Assembly: GCF_025822765.1 (NCBI RefSeq)
Contig: NZ_JACKUK010000027.1
Location: forward strand, 328,148-392,147
Length of the DNA stretch: 64,000 bases
Reading direction: 5' to 3'
From: Mycobacterium barrassiae
GTDB lineage: Bacteria > Actinomycetota > Actinomycetes > Mycobacteriales > Mycobacteriaceae
The notes beneath the pieces were generated by a model, which was not told where the DNA came from, did not search any database, and saw only the letters and a list, made by a program, of their open reading frames with translations. Each line of letters opens with the position of its first letter. Position 1 is the first letter of the stretch. The position numbers and the translations under genes were made by a program. Positions 10,379 through 22,515 of this stretch are shown in pieces.

Positions 10379-11773
10379 TTACCGACGGTTGTTTCCGTCC
10401 GAAAGGAATCCGAGTAGGTCGTGGCGGGTGAGGACGCCAACCGGCTTGCCCTCTTCGACGACCATCACGGCATCGCATTCGCGCAGTGCCTTCGCCGCGG
10501 TGCTGACGAGTTCTCCCGCCCCGATCAACGGCAGCGGCGGACTCATGTGCTGCGACACCGCGTCGGCCAGCTTTGCCCTGCCCTCGAAGACGGCGGACAG
10601 CAGTTCGCGCTCCGAGACGCTGCCTGCGACTTCGCCCGCCATCACCGGCGGCTCGGCGCCCACCACCGGCATCTGGGAGACGCCGTACTCCCGCAGGATG
10701 CCGATCGCGTCGCGCACGGTTTCCGACGGGTGGGTGTGTACCAGGTCCGGCAACGCGCCGGACTTACCTCGTAGCACCTCGCCGACGGTGTTCTCCTCCA
10801 CCGAACCGTCGAGCCGGGTCCGCAGGAATCCATACGAGGACATCCACGCGTCGTTGAAAACCTTTGACAGATAACCTCTTCCGCCATCGGGAAGCAGGAC
10901 GACCACCAGTGCGTCGGGGCCGGCTTTCTCCGCGACCCTGATCGCCGCGACGACGGCCATACCGCACGATCCGCCGACCAACAGCGCTTCTTCGCGCGCG
11001 AGCCGACGCGTCATCTCGAACGAATCGGCGTCGGACACGGCGATGATCTCGTCCGGGACGCCGGGATCGTAGGCGGACGGCCAGAAGTCCTCCCCCACAC
11101 CTTCCACCAGGTACGGCCGCCCAGTGCCGCCCGAGTAGACCGATCCCTCAGGGTCGACGCCGACGATCCTGACCTTTCCGCCGGACACCTCCTTGAGGTA
11201 GCGCCCAGCGCCGGTGATGGTTCCGCCGGTGCCGACTCCGGCGACGAAATGCGTGACCTTGCCGTCGGTGTCCGCCCACACCTCGGGACCGGTCGTCTCG
11301 TAGTGGCTCTCGGGACCCATCGGGTTCGAGTACTGGTCGGGCTTCCATGCGCCGTCGATCTCCTCGACCAGTCGGTTGGAGACGCTGTAGTAGCTGTCCG
11401 GGTGATCCGGTGGTACCGCCGTCGGGCACACGACGACGTCGGCGCCGTACGCGCGCAACACGTTCTGCTTGTCCTCGCTGACCTTGTCAGGGCAGACGAA
11501 GATGCACTTGTAGCCCCGCTGCTGCGCCACCAGCGCCAGCCCCACCCCGGTATTTCCCGACGTCGGCTCGACGATGGTGCCACCGGGTTTGAGCTCGCCA
11601 CTCTGCTCGGCGGCGTCGATCATCTTGATGGCGATGCGGTCTTTGGAGCTGCCGCCGGGATTGAGGTACTCGATCTTGGCGGCGACGGTGCCTGCGCCTT
11701 CGGGGACGACGGAGTTCAGCTGTACCAGAGGGGTATTGCCGATGAGCTCACTGACGTGCCTGGCGATGCGCAT
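10379..11773 (-). CDS. cbs: Cystathionine beta-synthase
   Basis: PLP enzyme that condenses serine and homocysteine to cystathionine. The 464-aa protein has the cysteine-synthase fold: IGNTPLVQL, then NPGGSSKDRIA with the PLP lysine at residue 44, TSGNTGVGLA, and the phosphate-binding GVGTGGTITGAGRYL. It carries two C-terminal CBS domains (from about residue 335: PDLVHTHPSETVRDAIGILR, and DAVMVVEEGKPVGVLTRHDLL), as in Rv1077 and the eukaryotic enzyme. The start at 11773 has a GGAG four bases upstream. It lies in the same direction as metB and upstream of the pra-like genes. Confidence 0.95.
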   Translation of the reverse strand: MRIARHVSELIGNTPLVQLNSVVPEGAGTVAAKIEYLNPGGSSKDRIAIKMIDAAEQSGELKPGGTIVEPTSGNTGVGLALVAQQRGYKCIFVCPDKVSEDKQNVLRAYGADVVVCPTAVPPDHPDSYYSVSNRLVEEIDGAWKPDQYSNPMGPESHYETTGPEVWADTDGKVTHFVAGVGTGGTITGAGRYLKEVSGGKVRIVGVDPEGSVYSGGTGRPYLVEGVGEDFWPSAYDPGVPDEIIAVSDADSFEMTRRLAREEALLVGGSCGMAVVAAIRVAEKAGPDALVVVLLPDGGRGYLSKVFNDAWMSSYGFLRTRLDGSVEENTVGEVLRGKSGALPDLVHTHPSETVRDAIGILREYGVSQMPVVGAEPPVMAGEVAGSVSERELLSAVFEGRAKLADAVSQHMSPPLPLIGAGELVSTAAKALRECDAVMVVEEGKPVGVLTRHDLLGFLSDGNNRR

Positions 11774-15356: not shown

Positions 15357-16194
15357 GATCGCCACACGCGGTCAAGACGCCGCAGCACATCGACGGCACG
15401 GTTCGCTTTGACAACTCTGAGCCGCGTCCAGCCGAGTTCGGCGATATCTTCTGATCGCTGAATGTCCTTGGCATAGATTTCGGCGTCGTTGCGGTGCTGC
15501 TCTCCGTCGTATTCAAGAGCCAGCTGGCGGTCTTCCCACCCCATATCGAGGTAGTAAGTCCGACGGCCCTCGAGGCTGAGCAGTCGAATCTGCGTGCGAG
15601 GTCGCGGGTAGCCCGCGCGAATCACCAACAGCCGCAGCCAGGTTTCCTTCGGCGACTCGGCCCCGTTGTCCATGAGATCGAGTGCTTCCTCGAGCTGACG
15701 CAGGTTGCGAGCACCGCGGTGTTTTCGCGCAACTGCAAGCACATCTAGGGCCGATATGCCGGTCGCGTTGGCCAGTGCATCCAGACGCGCGACAGCCTCG
15801 CCGAGTCGACCGCGACGTCCGATGTCGAATGCCGTGCGCTCGGGGGTGGTGACGGGAGTCCGTTGTAGACACCGAATTCGTCGGCATGAAGCCTCGTGTC
15901 GTATGTCCGCAGACCGCGAGGCCGACGAGCGTTGTGCCACACCAGCTCGATGGGGTTTGTCTCGTCGACCCAGTTCGCGCCGTGTAGGGCCGACGCCGTC
16001 AACCCGGCGATTACGCCCTCTCGATGTGACCACAGCCATCCCGCGACTGCACGCTGACGCAACGTCAGCGCGACATCCGTCGGCACGTAAACATCTGGGA
16101 ATTCTGCACGGAACCGCGACCGCAGTTGATGCTTCTTGACGAGACCGTTGGCGATGGCTTCGCTGCCCACGAACGGCCACTTGAGAGTCGTCAT
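15326..16194 (-). pseudogene. DUF559 endonuclease-like / AbiEi-type protein, frameshifted
   Basis: Two frames join to give one protein of about 288 aa. The N-terminal part (ATG 16194: MTTLKWPFVGSEAIANGLVK, ending HADEFGVYNGLP near 15865) resembles the AbiEi-type DNA-binding part of mycobacterial proteins. The C-terminal part, in another frame, continues VTTPERTAFDIGRRG and ends in a Vsr-like DUF559 domain, YYLDMGWEDRQLALEYDGEQH. Adding one G to the CCCGTC at about 15863-15868 would restore LPVTTPERTAF. So this is either a real single-base deletion or a sequencing error. The position between fadA3 and the BI-1 gene is that of Rv1073 as I recall. Both ends are bordered by related palindromes. 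Confidence 0.8.
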
Positions 16195-19178: not shown

Positions 19179-20876
19179 GTGACAGACACCGCTGAGGCCG
19201 TCGAGGACGCCCCGCCGCAGGAGGAAACGCCACCCAAGCGGCCGTGGTGGGTGCGTCACTACACGTTCACCGGTACGGCACTGGGTCTGGTTTTCATCTG
19301 GCTGTCCCTGACGCCGTCGCTGCTGCCGCGCGGGCCGCTGTTCCAAGGCGTCGTCAGCGGTTCCGCGGGCGCGATCGGATACGGCCTCGGCGTGTTCGTG
19401 GTGTGGCTGTGGCGCTACATGCGATCGAAGGACGCCAGTCCGCCGGCGCCGCGCTGGGCCTGGATGGCCCTCCTGGTCGTCGGTGCCATCGGCATGCTCC
19501 TGATGATCTTCTACTTCCACCGCTGGCAGGACGAGGTCCGCGACCTCAACGGCGTAGCGCGCCTGGAGTTCTGGGACTACCCGTGGTGTGCGTTCCTGTC
19601 GATCGTGGTGCTGTTCATCTTCGTCGAAATCGGCCAGCTCATCGGCAGGCTCGTGCGCTTTCTGGTGCGGCAGCTCAATCGCGTTGCACCACCCCGCATC
19701 TCGGCGGTGATCGTCGTCGTCCTGCTGCTCGCCCTGACCATCGCGCTGCTCAACGGTGTGGTGGTGCGCTTCGGCATGAGCGCGTTGAACAAGACGTTCG
19801 CGGCGGCCAACGACGAAACCGATCCCGAATTCGGGCCGCCGACATCGCCGTTGCGCTCCGGCGGGCCCGGCTCGGCGGTCACGTGGGATTCGCTGGGCCA
19901 TCAGGGACGGGTGTTCGTCTCGGCGGGGCCCACGGTCGAGGAGCTCACCGAATTCAACGGCAAACCCGCCATGGAACCGATCCGGACCTATGCCGGACTG
20001 CACTCCGCCGACGGCATCAAGGCGACCGCCGCGCTAGCGGCCGAGGAGCTGCAACGTAAGGGCGGCCTCGACCGCGAGGTGGTCGCCGTCGCCACCACCA
20101 CCGGCACGGGCTGGATCAACGAGGCCGAGGCCTCGGCGCTGGAGTACATGTACAACGGCGACACCGCGATCGTGTCCATGCAGTACTCGTTCCTTCCGAG
20201 TTGGCTGTCCTTCCTCGTCGACAAGGAGAACGCACGCCAGGCGGGGCAGGCGCTGTTCGAGGCCGTTGACGGGCTGATCCGCGAGATGCCCGAGGCGGAT
20301 AGGCCCCGGCTGGTGGTGTTCGGCGAGAGCCTGGGCTCGTTCGGCGGCGAGGCGCCCTTCCTGGCGCTGAACAACCTCATCGCCCGCACCGACGGCGCGC
20401 TGTTCTCCGGCCCGACGTTCAACAACACGATCTGGACCCAACTGACCCGCAACCGCGATGCGGGCTCGCCGGAATGGCTGCCCATTTTCGACAAGGGCGA
20501 CAACGTCCGCTTCGCCGCGAGGTCGGAGAACCTCGACAGGCCCGACGATCCGTGGGGTCATCCGCGGGTGGTGTACCTGCAGCATGCGTCGGACCCGATT
20601 GCCTGGTGGAACCCGGATCTGCTGTTCGCCGAACCGGATTGGCTCAAGGAGCCACGCGGCTACGACGTGTCAGGACGCATGCAGTGGATCCCGATCGTCA
20701 CCTTCCTGCAGGTCTCCGCGGACATGGCGGTTGCGGTTGATGTGCCCGACGGCCACGGCCACGTGTACGTCAAGGACGTCGCCAACGCCTGGGCGGACAT
20801 TCTGCAGCCCCCGGGCTGGACACCGGAGAAGACCGAGAAGCTGCGCCCGCTACTGAGCAACGACGAAAACGCCTAG
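19179..20876 (+). CDS. Membrane-anchored alpha/beta hydrolase (Rv1069c-like, Abhydrolase_9)
   Basis: 565-aa protein. Four to five transmembrane helices lie in residues 25-205 (for example GLVFIWLSLTPSLLPRGPL and VVLLLALTIALLNGVVV). A soluble hydrolase domain follows: RTYAGLHSADGIKATA, the nucleophile elbow VFGESLGSFGGEAPF, and GHPRVVYLQHASDPIAWWNP. This matches the Abhydrolase_9 family and its N-terminal membrane domain, typical of mycobacteria. Substrate is unknown. The GTG at 19179 lies ten bases after echA8. Confidence 0.9.
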   Translation: MTDTAEAVEDAPPQEETPPKRPWWVRHYTFTGTALGLVFIWLSLTPSLLPRGPLFQGVVSGSAGAIGYGLGVFVVWLWRYMRSKDASPPAPRWAWMALLVVGAIGMLLMIFYFHRWQDEVRDLNGVARLEFWDYPWCAFLSIVVLFIFVEIGQLIGRLVRFLVRQLNRVAPPRISAVIVVVLLLALTIALLNGVVVRFGMSALNKTFAAANDETDPEFGPPTSPLRSGGPGSAVTWDSLGHQGRVFVSAGPTVEELTEFNGKPAMEPIRTYAGLHSADGIKATAALAAEELQRKGGLDREVVAVATTTGTGWINEAEASALEYMYNGDTAIVSMQYSFLPSWLSFLVDKENARQAGQALFEAVDGLIREMPEADRPRLVVFGESLGSFGGEAPFLALNNLIARTDGALFSGPTFNNTIWTQLTRNRDAGSPEWLPIFDKGDNVRFAARSENLDRPDDPWGHPRVVYLQHASDPIAWWNPDLLFAEPDWLKEPRGYDVSGRMQWIPIVTFLQVSADMAVAVDVPDGHGHVYVKDVANAWADILQPPGWTPEKTEKLRPLLSNDENA

Positions 20877-21262
20877 ACCAGAACGCCTTCGGCCTTCAAC
20901 GCGTGGTAGCCGCCGATGACGTCGGTGGCACGGTGCAGCCCGAGGTCGAGCAGGGACGCGGCGGCCAGGCTGGAGGTGTAGCCCTCCGAGCACAGCACCA
21001 CCCATTCGACGTCGTCGTCCACGGCCTGCGGGAGCCGGGCATCGCTGGTCGGGTCGCAGCGCCATTCGAGCACGTTGCGTTCGATCACCAGGGCCGCCGG
21101 AACCTCCCCTTCACGTTCGCGCTGGGCCTGCGGCCGGATGTCCACCAGGATCGCGCCACGGGCCAACGCCGCAGGCACTTCCTGTGCAGTTAGTCTGGTC
21201 AGCCGGGCACGGGCGTCGGCCAGGATGCGATCGATGCGGCTCACCACCGAAACTGTAGCCAT
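20873..21262 (-). CDS. Rhodanese-like sulfurtransferase
   Basis: 129-aa single-domain rhodanese. DIRPQAQREREGEVPAA is the typical first motif and VLCSEGYTSSLAAASLLDLG holds the active-site Cys loop; GGYHALKAEGV closes the domain. It moves sulfane sulfur, probably from products of cysteine breakdown. I chose the ATG at 21262 because GGAGGG lies nine bases upstream; an earlier ATG at 21271 abuts that RBS. It follows cysteine dioxygenase by five bases, so the two are cotranscribed under the polycysteine leader ORF at 21832-21879. It corresponds to Rv1066. Confidence 0.9.
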   Translation of the reverse strand: MATVSVVSRIDRILADARARLTRLTAQEVPAALARGAILVDIRPQAQREREGEVPAALVIERNVLEWRCDPTSDARLPQAVDDDVEWVVLCSEGYTSSLAAASLLDLGLHRATDVIGGYHALKAEGVLV

Positions 21263-21267
21263 CGACG

Positions 21268-21786
21268 TCATCCCTCCGGCTCGTCGGTGAGTTCGGTGCG
21301 ATTGCGGCGCAGTGTGTTCCGAGGTGTCACCTCGTAATAGGACATCGCGGTCAACGGCGGCGAGTATGCGTGCACGCTCAAAGTCGGGGTGATCGGTGCC
21401 GAAGTGTCCCGGTCGGGCGCCCACACCACGTCGTGCACCCAGCCGAGCGGGAACGCCGCCTGGTCCCCCGCCTTGAGGTGCCGGCGCCTGAGCTCCCGGC
21501 CGTCCCAACGGGTTTCCTCCAGCGCACCGGACACCACGGTCAGTGCGCCCAGCGAACCACCGTGGTCGTGCAGCTCGGTCGAGCGGTCCGGAACCCAGCT
21601 GATGAGCCAGACGTCGAGGTCGTCGTCGCCGTGCAGCCGGGTGTACCAGCGGTCGGTTGTCGGGAGACCACCCGGCGGCAGCACGCCGTCGTAGCGGCCG
21701 GAGAACACGTCATCGGCGTAACGGTCGGTGGCATGCAGTAGGTCGGGTTGGCGCAGTCGGGTCGGCAACGAGATGGCGGAAACCAT
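21268..21786 (-). CDS. Cysteine dioxygenase type I
   Basis: Cupin enzyme of 172 aa that oxidises L-cysteine to cysteine sulfinate. The iron ligands are in TELHDHGGSLGALTVVSG (HxH) and the later His in FPLGWVHDVVW. It is preceded by GGAG at good distance from the ATG at 21786. With the rhodanese gene it forms a cysteine-catabolism operon. The 15-codon ORF upstream, with four Cys codons, suggests expression rises or falls with cysteine supply. It corresponds to Rv1065. Confidence 0.93.
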   Translation of the reverse strand: MVSAISLPTRLRQPDLLHATDRYADDVFSGRYDGVLPPGGLPTTDRWYTRLHGDDDLDVWLISWVPDRSTELHDHGGSLGALTVVSGALEETRWDGRELRRRHLKAGDQAAFPLGWVHDVVWAPDRDTSAPITPTLSVHAYSPPLTAMSYYEVTPRNTLRRNRTELTDEPEG

Positions 21787-21831
21787 GCGAACTCCAGGGA
21801 ATGACGGACGGAACGGACAGGGACAGGCGCG
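21787..21831 (-). promoter_or_regulatory. Pyrimidine-rich leader between polycysteine ORF and cysteine dioxygenase
   Basis: On the minus strand this stretch reads as repeated CTGTCC/CCGTCC-like pyrimidine units with few A residues, which is what a Rho-loading site would look like. The first part, together with the leader-ORF end, has short GCGCC repeats. If translation of the leader ORF controls access to it, it could be the attenuator. Inferred. Confidence 0.4.
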
Positions 21832-21879
21832 TCAGGCGCAACAGTCCATGCGGCAGATGCACAGGTATCCGGTCGTCAC
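21832..21879 (-). CDS. Polycysteine leader peptide (attenuator ORF)
   Basis: A 15-codon ORF from the GTG at 21879 to the TGA at 21832-21834 encodes MTTGYLCICRMDCCA, with four cysteines in the last nine residues. It lies 45 bases upstream of cysteine dioxygenase, in the same direction. Short, leaderless polycysteine ORFs upstream of sulfur genes are known in mycobacteria as cysteine-responsive attenuators, and this fits in position and content. A CAGACT hexamer seven bases before the GTG is a weak -10 candidate for leaderless transcription (A at position 2 and T at 6 are kept). The exact start is inferred. Confidence 0.75.
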   Translation of the reverse strand: MTTGYLCICRMDCCA

Positions 21880-22043
21880 GGCCGCAAGTCTGGCATGAAG
21901 ACGGGTGGCCGATCTGCAACGACGCCGTGGCCCGTACCGGACCGGACGGAAGCCGCTGTTCAGGGAGTGGCTTTTGAGGCCGGCATCTAAATTCACGGTG
22001 AGTCGAAGTCGACGGCACGATCGTCCGTCCGCGAGCCATTGCA

Positions 22044-22049
22044 TAGATT
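22044..22049 (+). promoter_or_regulatory. -10 element TAGATT, leaderless start of lpqV-like gene
   Basis: TAGATT ends seven bases before the ATG at 22057 with no RBS, which fits a leaderless transcript. Confidence 0.45.
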
Positions 22050-22056
22050 GGCTGGC

Positions 22057-22515
22057 ATGAGCAGGCATTCTCGGCGCGCCGTCGGGGCGGCGGCGCTCGT
22101 GATCGTCGCCATGGCCGTGGGCACCGGGTGCTCATCAGGAACCGACACCTCGTCAGGACCCGACGCCGGGCCCACCACGCCGGCACCGGCCGAGACGACC
22201 ACGACGACGTCGGAGACCCCTACCGCGGCCCCCGGCGAGGTCGCCGTATCCCCGGACGGCGTCACGACGGCCGTCGGAGCTCCAGCCGACTCCACCGAGG
22301 ACGAGTACTTCAAGGCGTGTAAGGCTGCGCGCGACTGGATGCAACAGCAGGGCGGCGACGCCAAGGCGCAGCTCGAGCCGTATTTGAAAAACGTGCAGGC
22401 CTCCGACGCACCGGGCCCGGGCACGTTCGACACCCCGTGGTCCCAGCTGCCTCCGCCGCGCCAGGCGGCGGTGATCGTGGCGGCGCAAGCCGCCGCCGAC
22501 GCGCTCTGCGGTTAG
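22057..22515 (+). CDS. lpqV: Lipoprotein LpqV-like
   Basis: 152-aa predicted lipoprotein. The basic N-terminus MSRHSRRAVG is followed by a hydrophobic core and a lipobox ending VGTGC with the lipidated Cys at 25. A Thr/Pro/Ser-rich linker spans about 28-65, and a small folded domain has EYFKACKAARDWMQQQGG and ends ADALCG; its two Cys could form a disulfide. Anchored on the outer face of the membrane, function unknown. It corresponds to Rv1064c. The patatin gene follows 15 bases later. Confidence 0.88.
   Translation: MSRHSRRAVGAAALVIVAMAVGTGCSSGTDTSSGPDAGPTTPAPAETTTTTSETPTAAPGEVAVSPDGVTTAVGAPADSTEDEYFKACKAARDWMQQQGGDAKAQLEPYLKNVQASDAPGPGTFDTPWSQLPPPRQAAVIVAAQAAADALCG

Follow-up and report, generated by a model that had tools for sequence, protein, structure and literature searches.

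On the minus strand of the analysed stretch of Mycobacterium barrassiae DNA (64,000 nucleotides; hereafter referred to as the window), a 15-codon open reading frame, MTTGYLCICRMDCCA, precedes the genes encoding cysteine dioxygenase (CDO) and a rhodanese-like protein. On balance, we regard this ORF as probably a cysteine-sensing leader (uORF) of the CDO-rhodanese operon, in which RNA helices govern the exposure of the CDO start and the operon would be ON at low cysteine. This best explanation has its comparative basis in the ORF itself, its conservation, the codon bias of its Cys codons, a hairpin at its stop codon (P2) and, moderately, a helix closing onto the CDO ribosome-binding region (P1); from these we infer the transcription start site, ribosome dwell, exposure of the ribosome-binding site (RBS) and direction of control.

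In the proposed mechanism, the transcript would begin at the leader GTG, at which a 70S ribosome would initiate without a Shine-Dalgarno sequence. When cysteine is plentiful, the ribosome would pass the Cys codons fast and depart, and after its exit P1 would sequester the CDO ribosome-binding region around P2, keeping CDO translation low. Under a shortage of Cys-tRNA, the ribosome would dwell on the Cys codons and disrupt the helices, so that the CDO start would be exposed and the operon turned ON.

A short leader ORF with tandem Cys codons

The leader ORF extends from a GTG (21879–21877) to a TGA (21834–21832) and contains four Cys codons (21861–21859, 21855–21853, 21843–21841 and 21840–21838; minus strand). 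A C/T-rich linker of 45 nt separates its TGA from the CDO ATG at 21786. An earlier reading of the sequence alone had described just such an arrangement, a 15-codon ORF with four Cys codons 45 bases before cysteine dioxygenase, and the sequence agrees with it. A longer in-frame ORF of 78 codons (21832–22068) is also present around the leader. The features of the region are collected in Table 1.

Table 1. Features of the leader region and its downstream genes (window positions)
Feature	Position	Strand	Basis or remark
-10-like hexamer CAGACT	21887..21892	minus	ends 7 nt 5' of leader GTG; relatives with the same spacing
Leader ORF GTG..TGA, MTTGYLCICRMDCCA, leaderless-type	21832..21879	minus	sequence and tandem-Cys conservation
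P1, 5' strand (TGACG + CGGA)	21868..21878	minus	9 pairs, window-clade comparison
Extra Cys codons 7 and 9 (TGC ATC TGC)	21853..21861	minus	window sequence, clade comparison
Tandem Cys codons TGT TGC, conserved	21838..21843	minus	window sequence, codon counts in relatives
Hairpin P2, GCGC-CTGAC-GCGC, stop codon in loop	21827..21839	minus	family swap tests; window clade
C-rich, G-poor linker	21798..21831	minus	between leader stop and Shine-Dalgarno
P1, 3' strand (TCCG + CGTCA)	21802..21812	minus	directly 5' of Shine-Dalgarno
Shine-Dalgarno CTGGAG of CDO	21792..21797	minus	window sequence
Cysteine dioxygenase (CDO), 172 aa, PF05995	21268..21786	minus	E 4.4e-10
Rhodanese-like protein, 125 aa, PF00581, second gene	20873..21250	minus	E 1.4e-8

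The hexamer upstream of the leader is placed as expected of a leaderless transcript, and the GTG would accordingly be the transcript start. The distance from the end of the hexamer to the start codon was 7 nt in 92 and 6 nt in 10 of 102 candidate leaders, a count that is partly circular because the candidates were ranked by that hexamer, and that includes one wrong pick (L063).

The assignment of the downstream genes is straightforward. All 26 of the PDB sequences matched by CDO are named cysteine dioxygenases, one of them as putative. The rhodanese gene was adjacent to that of CDO in 160 of 166 loci and fused to it in 3 (163/166 in total); of the remaining three, two had too little flank and one (L060) was without a rhodanese. 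In the fused cases (L171, L172 and L173), CDO and rhodanese form one frame. Thus, CDO and the rhodanese are the sulfur/cysteine-metabolism genes downstream of the leader, the operon being read from gene adjacency. A minus-strand ORF at 10379–11773 of the window, which we take to resemble cystathionine beta-synthase, is situated some 10 kb away from the CDO operon.

We scanned both strands of the window for leaderless-type ORFs, defined as a -10-like A...T hexamer 6–8 nt before RTG, at most 20 codons and tandem Cys, and obtained two hits, against a mean of 0.8 (range 0–5) in 20 Markov shuffles. On these numbers, a single tandem-Cys ORF is weak evidence by itself. A second tandem-Cys ORF, at window position 15390 on the minus strand (beginning MCCGVLTACGDRDCCQIAKF) and likewise preceded by a -10-like hexamer, overlaps a larger ORF and was taken as probably a chance occurrence.

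That the leader is itself a chance ORF, for which the scan numbers leave some room, is contradicted by its conservation and may practically be dismissed. CDO was preceded by a short ORF of the leaderless type, with tandem Cys, in 106 of the 110 loci read. These loci, which are mutually non-independent, comprise the 30 best matches of a genus search, 60 chosen loci and 20 new loci from a family draw; 93 belong to the genus of the window and 17 to other genera, with CDO starts assigned by a rule that may be off in a few cases (e.g. L055). The four exceptions were L013 (DCRA), L016 (Cys, then stop), L044 (SCRA) and L060 (one Cys). Among titled records from another collection, which are mostly of Mycobacterium or Mycolicibacterium, include some MAGs and overlap with the 110 loci, 79 of 80 had the tandem-Cys ORF before CDO, the exception (L195) reading DCRA. 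The comparison of leaders before the same operon in other mycobacteria, which the sequence-only reading had proposed as a check, thus finds the tandem Cys kept. These sequence comparisons confirm that the 15-codon leader is real and strongly conserved, and it is conservation that carries the case. The tandem pair of L039 occupies codons 4–5 instead of its usual site. L016, in which a stop replaces the second Cys codon to give MTTGRQEC, is a natural single-Cys variant.

The choice of Cys codons is also biased. TGT served as the first Cys codon of the pair in 98 of 100 leaders and as the second codon in 74, and it is the rarer Cys codon in the 13 genes of the window (8 TGT vs 24 TGC). In 85 of the 100 tandem-pair leaders, two codons lie between the Cys pair and the stop. 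The tandem Cys was the most constant feature of the leaders, the residues flanking it varying from one to another; because of this variation, it is apparently the codons, not the peptide, that are conserved, and we ruled against a nascent-chain arrest peptide. As to the extra Cys codons of the window leader, codon 9 encodes Cys in all but one of the 7 window-clade loci, and codon 7 does so in the window alone.

To follow the leader outward, we considered the distribution of CDO, whose protein was matched in 274 of 297 genus-draw, 146 of 201 family-draw and 144 of 296 class-draw genomes. The leader was present in all six of loci L135–L140, one of which (L140) has no clear -10. Among 20 scanned loci of other genera (L171–L190), it was found in 11, two of them without a -10, and not in nine, which include the three CDO-rhodanese fusions. 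In Nocardia farcinica (L271) the leader reads VYSRVRTQECCRG. An upstream scan did not find a Cys leader in L171–L173 or in Tsukamurella tyrosinosolvens (L272); a -10-like hexamer is seen by eye near the CDO start in these four.

Outside the family but in the same class, eight loci of the group f21 have a Cys leader. In five of these (L142, L144, L145, L147 and L149) it is a leaderless-type ORF of only five codons, MRCCC, 73–76 nt before the CDO match; in L151 it is MQSCR, and in L150 and L152 a longer leader of the RRHIDLKR form, MQASALVLVMRRHIDLKRTCTAICR, occupies, by eye, the equivalent position before CDO. This longer form resembles the nirA leader, with 36.7 bits to the Ms4527A model, under the cut-off of 45. 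The tandem-Cys leader was absent from the 22 other out-of-family loci scanned (L141, L143, L146, L148 and L153–L170), with a scan floor of four codons for the first four; a floor of six misses five-codon ORFs.

Putative RNA helices and the CDO ribosome-binding region

P2 is a GC-rich stem directly 3' of the Cys pair, and its loop encloses the stop codon. Its stem reads CGAGGC..GCCUCG in other genera, GCAGC..GCUGC in one mycobacterial group and GCGC..GCGC in the window, and within the window clade one of the 7 sequences breaks one pair. To evaluate the pairing quantitatively, we used swap tests, in which the 5' and 3' halves were re-paired among diverged loci, with representatives cut at 75% or 70% identity. 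The native halves of 61 representatives gave -9.75 kcal/mol, as compared with -7.62 (SD 0.24) kcal/mol after permutation, the native value being reached in 0 of 1000 permutations; pooling with the titled records (66 representatives, 70%) gave -9.77 vs -7.82 kcal/mol, again 0/1000. The result held when the swaps were restricted to the genus (0/500 with 54 representatives; 0/1000 with 60), and was not significant in the 7 representatives of other genera by themselves (71/500). The best fold differs among loci, and not every locus shows exactly the P2 stem. Taken together, the partner-swap tests support the P2 helix.

P1 would pair leader codons with the region just before the CDO start. In the window clade, its 9 pairs are formed in all 7 sequences, one pair being G-C in 5 and A-U in 2. 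The clade covariation score was reached by 26 of 500 shuffles and the number of both-side pair changes by 259 of 500, these counts covering P1 and P2 together and the structure being derived from those same 7 sequences. More broadly, the leader ORF complements the CDO Shine-Dalgarno beyond its own shuffles (mean z -0.92, n=55). Among 32 windows of 16 nt between -150 and +36, the best Shine-Dalgarno complement came from the 16-nt window that ends at the first Cys codon, with a gain of 2.48 kcal/mol over shuffled targets (55 loci).

Swap tests of the leader against the RBS from -30 to +9 gave 0/1000, and 8/1000 in the genus; pooled with the titled records, the values were 0/1000 and 1/1000. A narrower target (-20..+9) gave 16/1000 and, in the genus, 149/1000, and leader -18..+1 against -20..-3 gave 15/1000 and 94/1000. 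Confined to GGAG loci, the test gave 263/1000 and, in the genus, 678/1000. This test and the position scan of 16-nt windows omit the 13 of 110 loci without GGAG, and the linker complement test described below likewise covers GGAG representatives only; the other P1 swap tests, the P2 pooled test and the opening-cost model include loci without GGAG. The lowest of eight controls was 86/1000, and a pooled control with the coding sequence (leader vs +9..+48) gave 33/1000 in the genus. These comparisons moderately support a P1 pairing of leader codons with the CDO ribosome-binding region, more weakly than they do P2. We rejected the idea that the Cys codons themselves pair with the Shine-Dalgarno region (swap test 203/500), and likewise that the P2 5' or 3' arm does so (464/500 and 331/500, respectively).

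We then modelled the cost of opening the RBS in 61 loci. It was 8.60 with the native leaders and 7.13 with shuffled leaders. Placing a ribosome at the Cys pair brought it down by 1.72, to 6.88, as against 0.70 for shuffled leaders, although the drop occurred in only 37 of the 61 loci. This pattern, a higher predicted cost with native leaders and its relief by a ribosome at the Cys pair, fits translational attenuation, ON during dwell at the Cys codons. The site would open about equally well with the ribosome at the stop codon (7.32; p 0.52 vs stall) or at the start (6.59); therefore, at best, dwell time could discriminate.

With the leader of the window itself, no useful change is predicted (6.06 free, 5.95 with the ribosome at the Cys pair and 6.36 at codon 7), the scored region, -16..+3, omitting most of the P1 3' strand in the window. 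A simple stall model likewise gave no change in the unpaired probability of the Shine-Dalgarno (0.23, 0.22, 0.24). Judging from the size of a ribosome footprint, occupancy of codon 7 would mask the P1 5' strand, and occupancy of codons 13–14 would leave it free.

The predicted equivalence of initiating and stalled ribosomes is what would be expected if the leader merely delivered ribosomes to the CDO start or insulated it, with incidental Cys codons and no dependence on cysteine, and passages of Shell 2015 (PMC4633059) describe leaderless small ORFs of mycobacteria that are coupled to the genes following them. The constancy of the tandem Cys amid varying neighbours argues against such coupling, which we consider improbable, slightly more so than the Rho-dependent scheme discussed below.

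The linker deserves separate consideration, since the sequence-only reading had seen in it a pyrimidine-rich tract that might load Rho. Rho-dependent attenuation, in which the linker would load Rho unless a leader ribosome blocks it, is in keeping with its composition in 54 representatives of the genus, richer in C (0.513) and poorer in G (0.179) than the 120 nt upstream of the leader (0.345 and 0.330). Several observations run against it. The distance from the leader stop to CDO is short (median 43 nt; 189 loci), and the linker C content is 0.408 in the 7 representatives of other genera. The linker also avoids complementarity to the Shine-Dalgarno (mean z +0.94), pairing better than its own shuffles in only 3 of 54 cases, and this avoidance may be a sufficient reason for its composition. 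In addition, conserved pairing extends to the ribosome-binding region. Because the linker composition may have this other reason and the RNA helices are conserved, Rho loading is not supported, and we hold it to be improbable; the tract itself is there, but the conserved helices point to translational control.

Direction of control

In the attenuation scheme proposed here, the anatomy of the leader leans towards control that is ON at low cysteine. The earlier reading is supported in part, as to the Cys-rich regulatory leader; its corollary, that cysteine breakdown is tuned to supply, needs the operon to be OFF at low cysteine. It is paradoxical for an enzyme that destroys cysteine to be raised when cysteine is low; this would point to sulfur salvage. 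Because the target destroys cysteine, the direction of control is a sharp test of the purpose of this bacterial CDO.

The same leader could also work in the opposite direction, ON at high cysteine, if finishing ribosomes opened the region after the stop codon or reinitiated and arrested ones did not, a tnaC-like logic though with codon sensing. This would suit a catabolic operon and the named role of the enzyme. It also finds an anatomical counterpart in the f21 loci, in each of which the strand directly 3' of the Cys leader folds onto the CDO Shine-Dalgarno; by the footprint sizes used above, this strand would be covered by a terminating ribosome but left free, in the long form, by one stalled at the first Cys. 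Against this direction, the modelled opening costs for the genus and its relatives do not differ between ribosomes at the Cys pair and at the stop.

Passages of two expression studies give conflicting hints. In Gordonia NB4-1Y, a cysteine dioxygenase transcript was among those raised on organosulfur sources relative to sulfate (PMC7661421), a rise on poor sulfur sources at odds with ON at high cysteine; in Rhodococcus IGTS8, two rhodaneses were lower on dibenzothiophene, a poor sulfur source (PMC8557817), a fall that agrees with it. Both come from other genera and bear on the present operon only if the genes concerned lie behind this leader. We judge the opposite direction to be rather unlikely.

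A fuller version of the low-cysteine reading combines three elements: starvation would turn the operon ON through the two-helix switch with the stop codon in its loop, CDO and rhodanese would carry out sulfur salvage, and the leader would shrink to MRCCC in a distant actinobacterial family. We put this forward tentatively, as a possibility that we do not favour as a whole. If it is true, CDO would oxidise another thiol or recycle sulfur through sulfite, instead of disposing of excess cysteine, and a cysteine-destroying enzyme would be added to the targets of a set of leaders that in this analysis otherwise precede operons for sulfur uptake and cysteine synthesis. The leader is small and widely conserved, with explicit base pairs to mutate, and is therefore directly testable.

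Comparison with known leaders

Cys-rich uORFs before cysA2, Rv0485 and nirA are described in passages of Shell 2015 (PMC4633059), and the leaderless-type, Cys-rich regulatory ORF that had been proposed before the CDO-rhodanese operon is thus of a kind described in mycobacteria. In the literature passages on such leaders, a set without Canestrari 2020, the CDO leader is not named; passages of another report (PMC9094748) count six M. tuberculosis Cys-rich sORFs whose names are absent from them, and one of these could be the CDO leader.

A search with NCBIfam profiles retrieved three known families in the genome of the window: an Ms4527A-family leader before a nirA-like gene with NIR_SIR_ferr domains, an Ms5788A-family leader before a two-domain rhodanese and an Ms4533A-family leader before a sulfate-binding protein. 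The search assigned 0 families to five extended in-frame ORFs of the CDO leader, and the single Rfam hit (E 0.52) was under the gathering score. An Erm-like methyltransferase in the same genome (L274, G000:C16:586476-587219) scored 356 bits to NF042938, for which the cut-off is 525.

Like the CDO leader, Ms5788A, Ms4527A and Ms4533A (NF042933, NF042936 and NF042937, respectively) are leaderless-type sORFs before sulfur operons, with clustered, mostly TGT, Cys codons near the end of the ORF. They differ in length, CDO leaders in mycobacteria having mostly 11–15 codons and the three known-family leaders of this genome 30–33. The CDO leader usually has two tandem Cys and lacks the RR-x-x-D motif found in Ms5788A and Ms4527A. 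Unlike the Ms families, it has a stop-codon hairpin, P2 having been examined in CDO leaders alone, and a cysteine-oxidising target.

Among other systems, tnaC, the leader of the E. coli tryptophanase operon, is likewise a short leader peptide before an operon that degrades an amino acid. The residues around the Cys pair of the CDO leader vary, unlike those of an arrest peptide, and there is no evidence of Rho for it. The attenuator of ilvB1 in M. tuberculosis, as portrayed in passages of one report (PMC13236596), is an amino-acid uORF with an intrinsic terminator; it resembles the CDO leader in having regulatory codons in a uORF and alternative RNA structures, and differs in its terminator, no hairpin with a T-run being seen on reading the window leader.

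By anatomy and target, the CDO leader appears to depart from the known polycysteine attenuators, unless it is listed in Canestrari 2020. In its manner of working, it most likely resembles the catalogued polycysteine leaders, acting through translational rather than Rho control.
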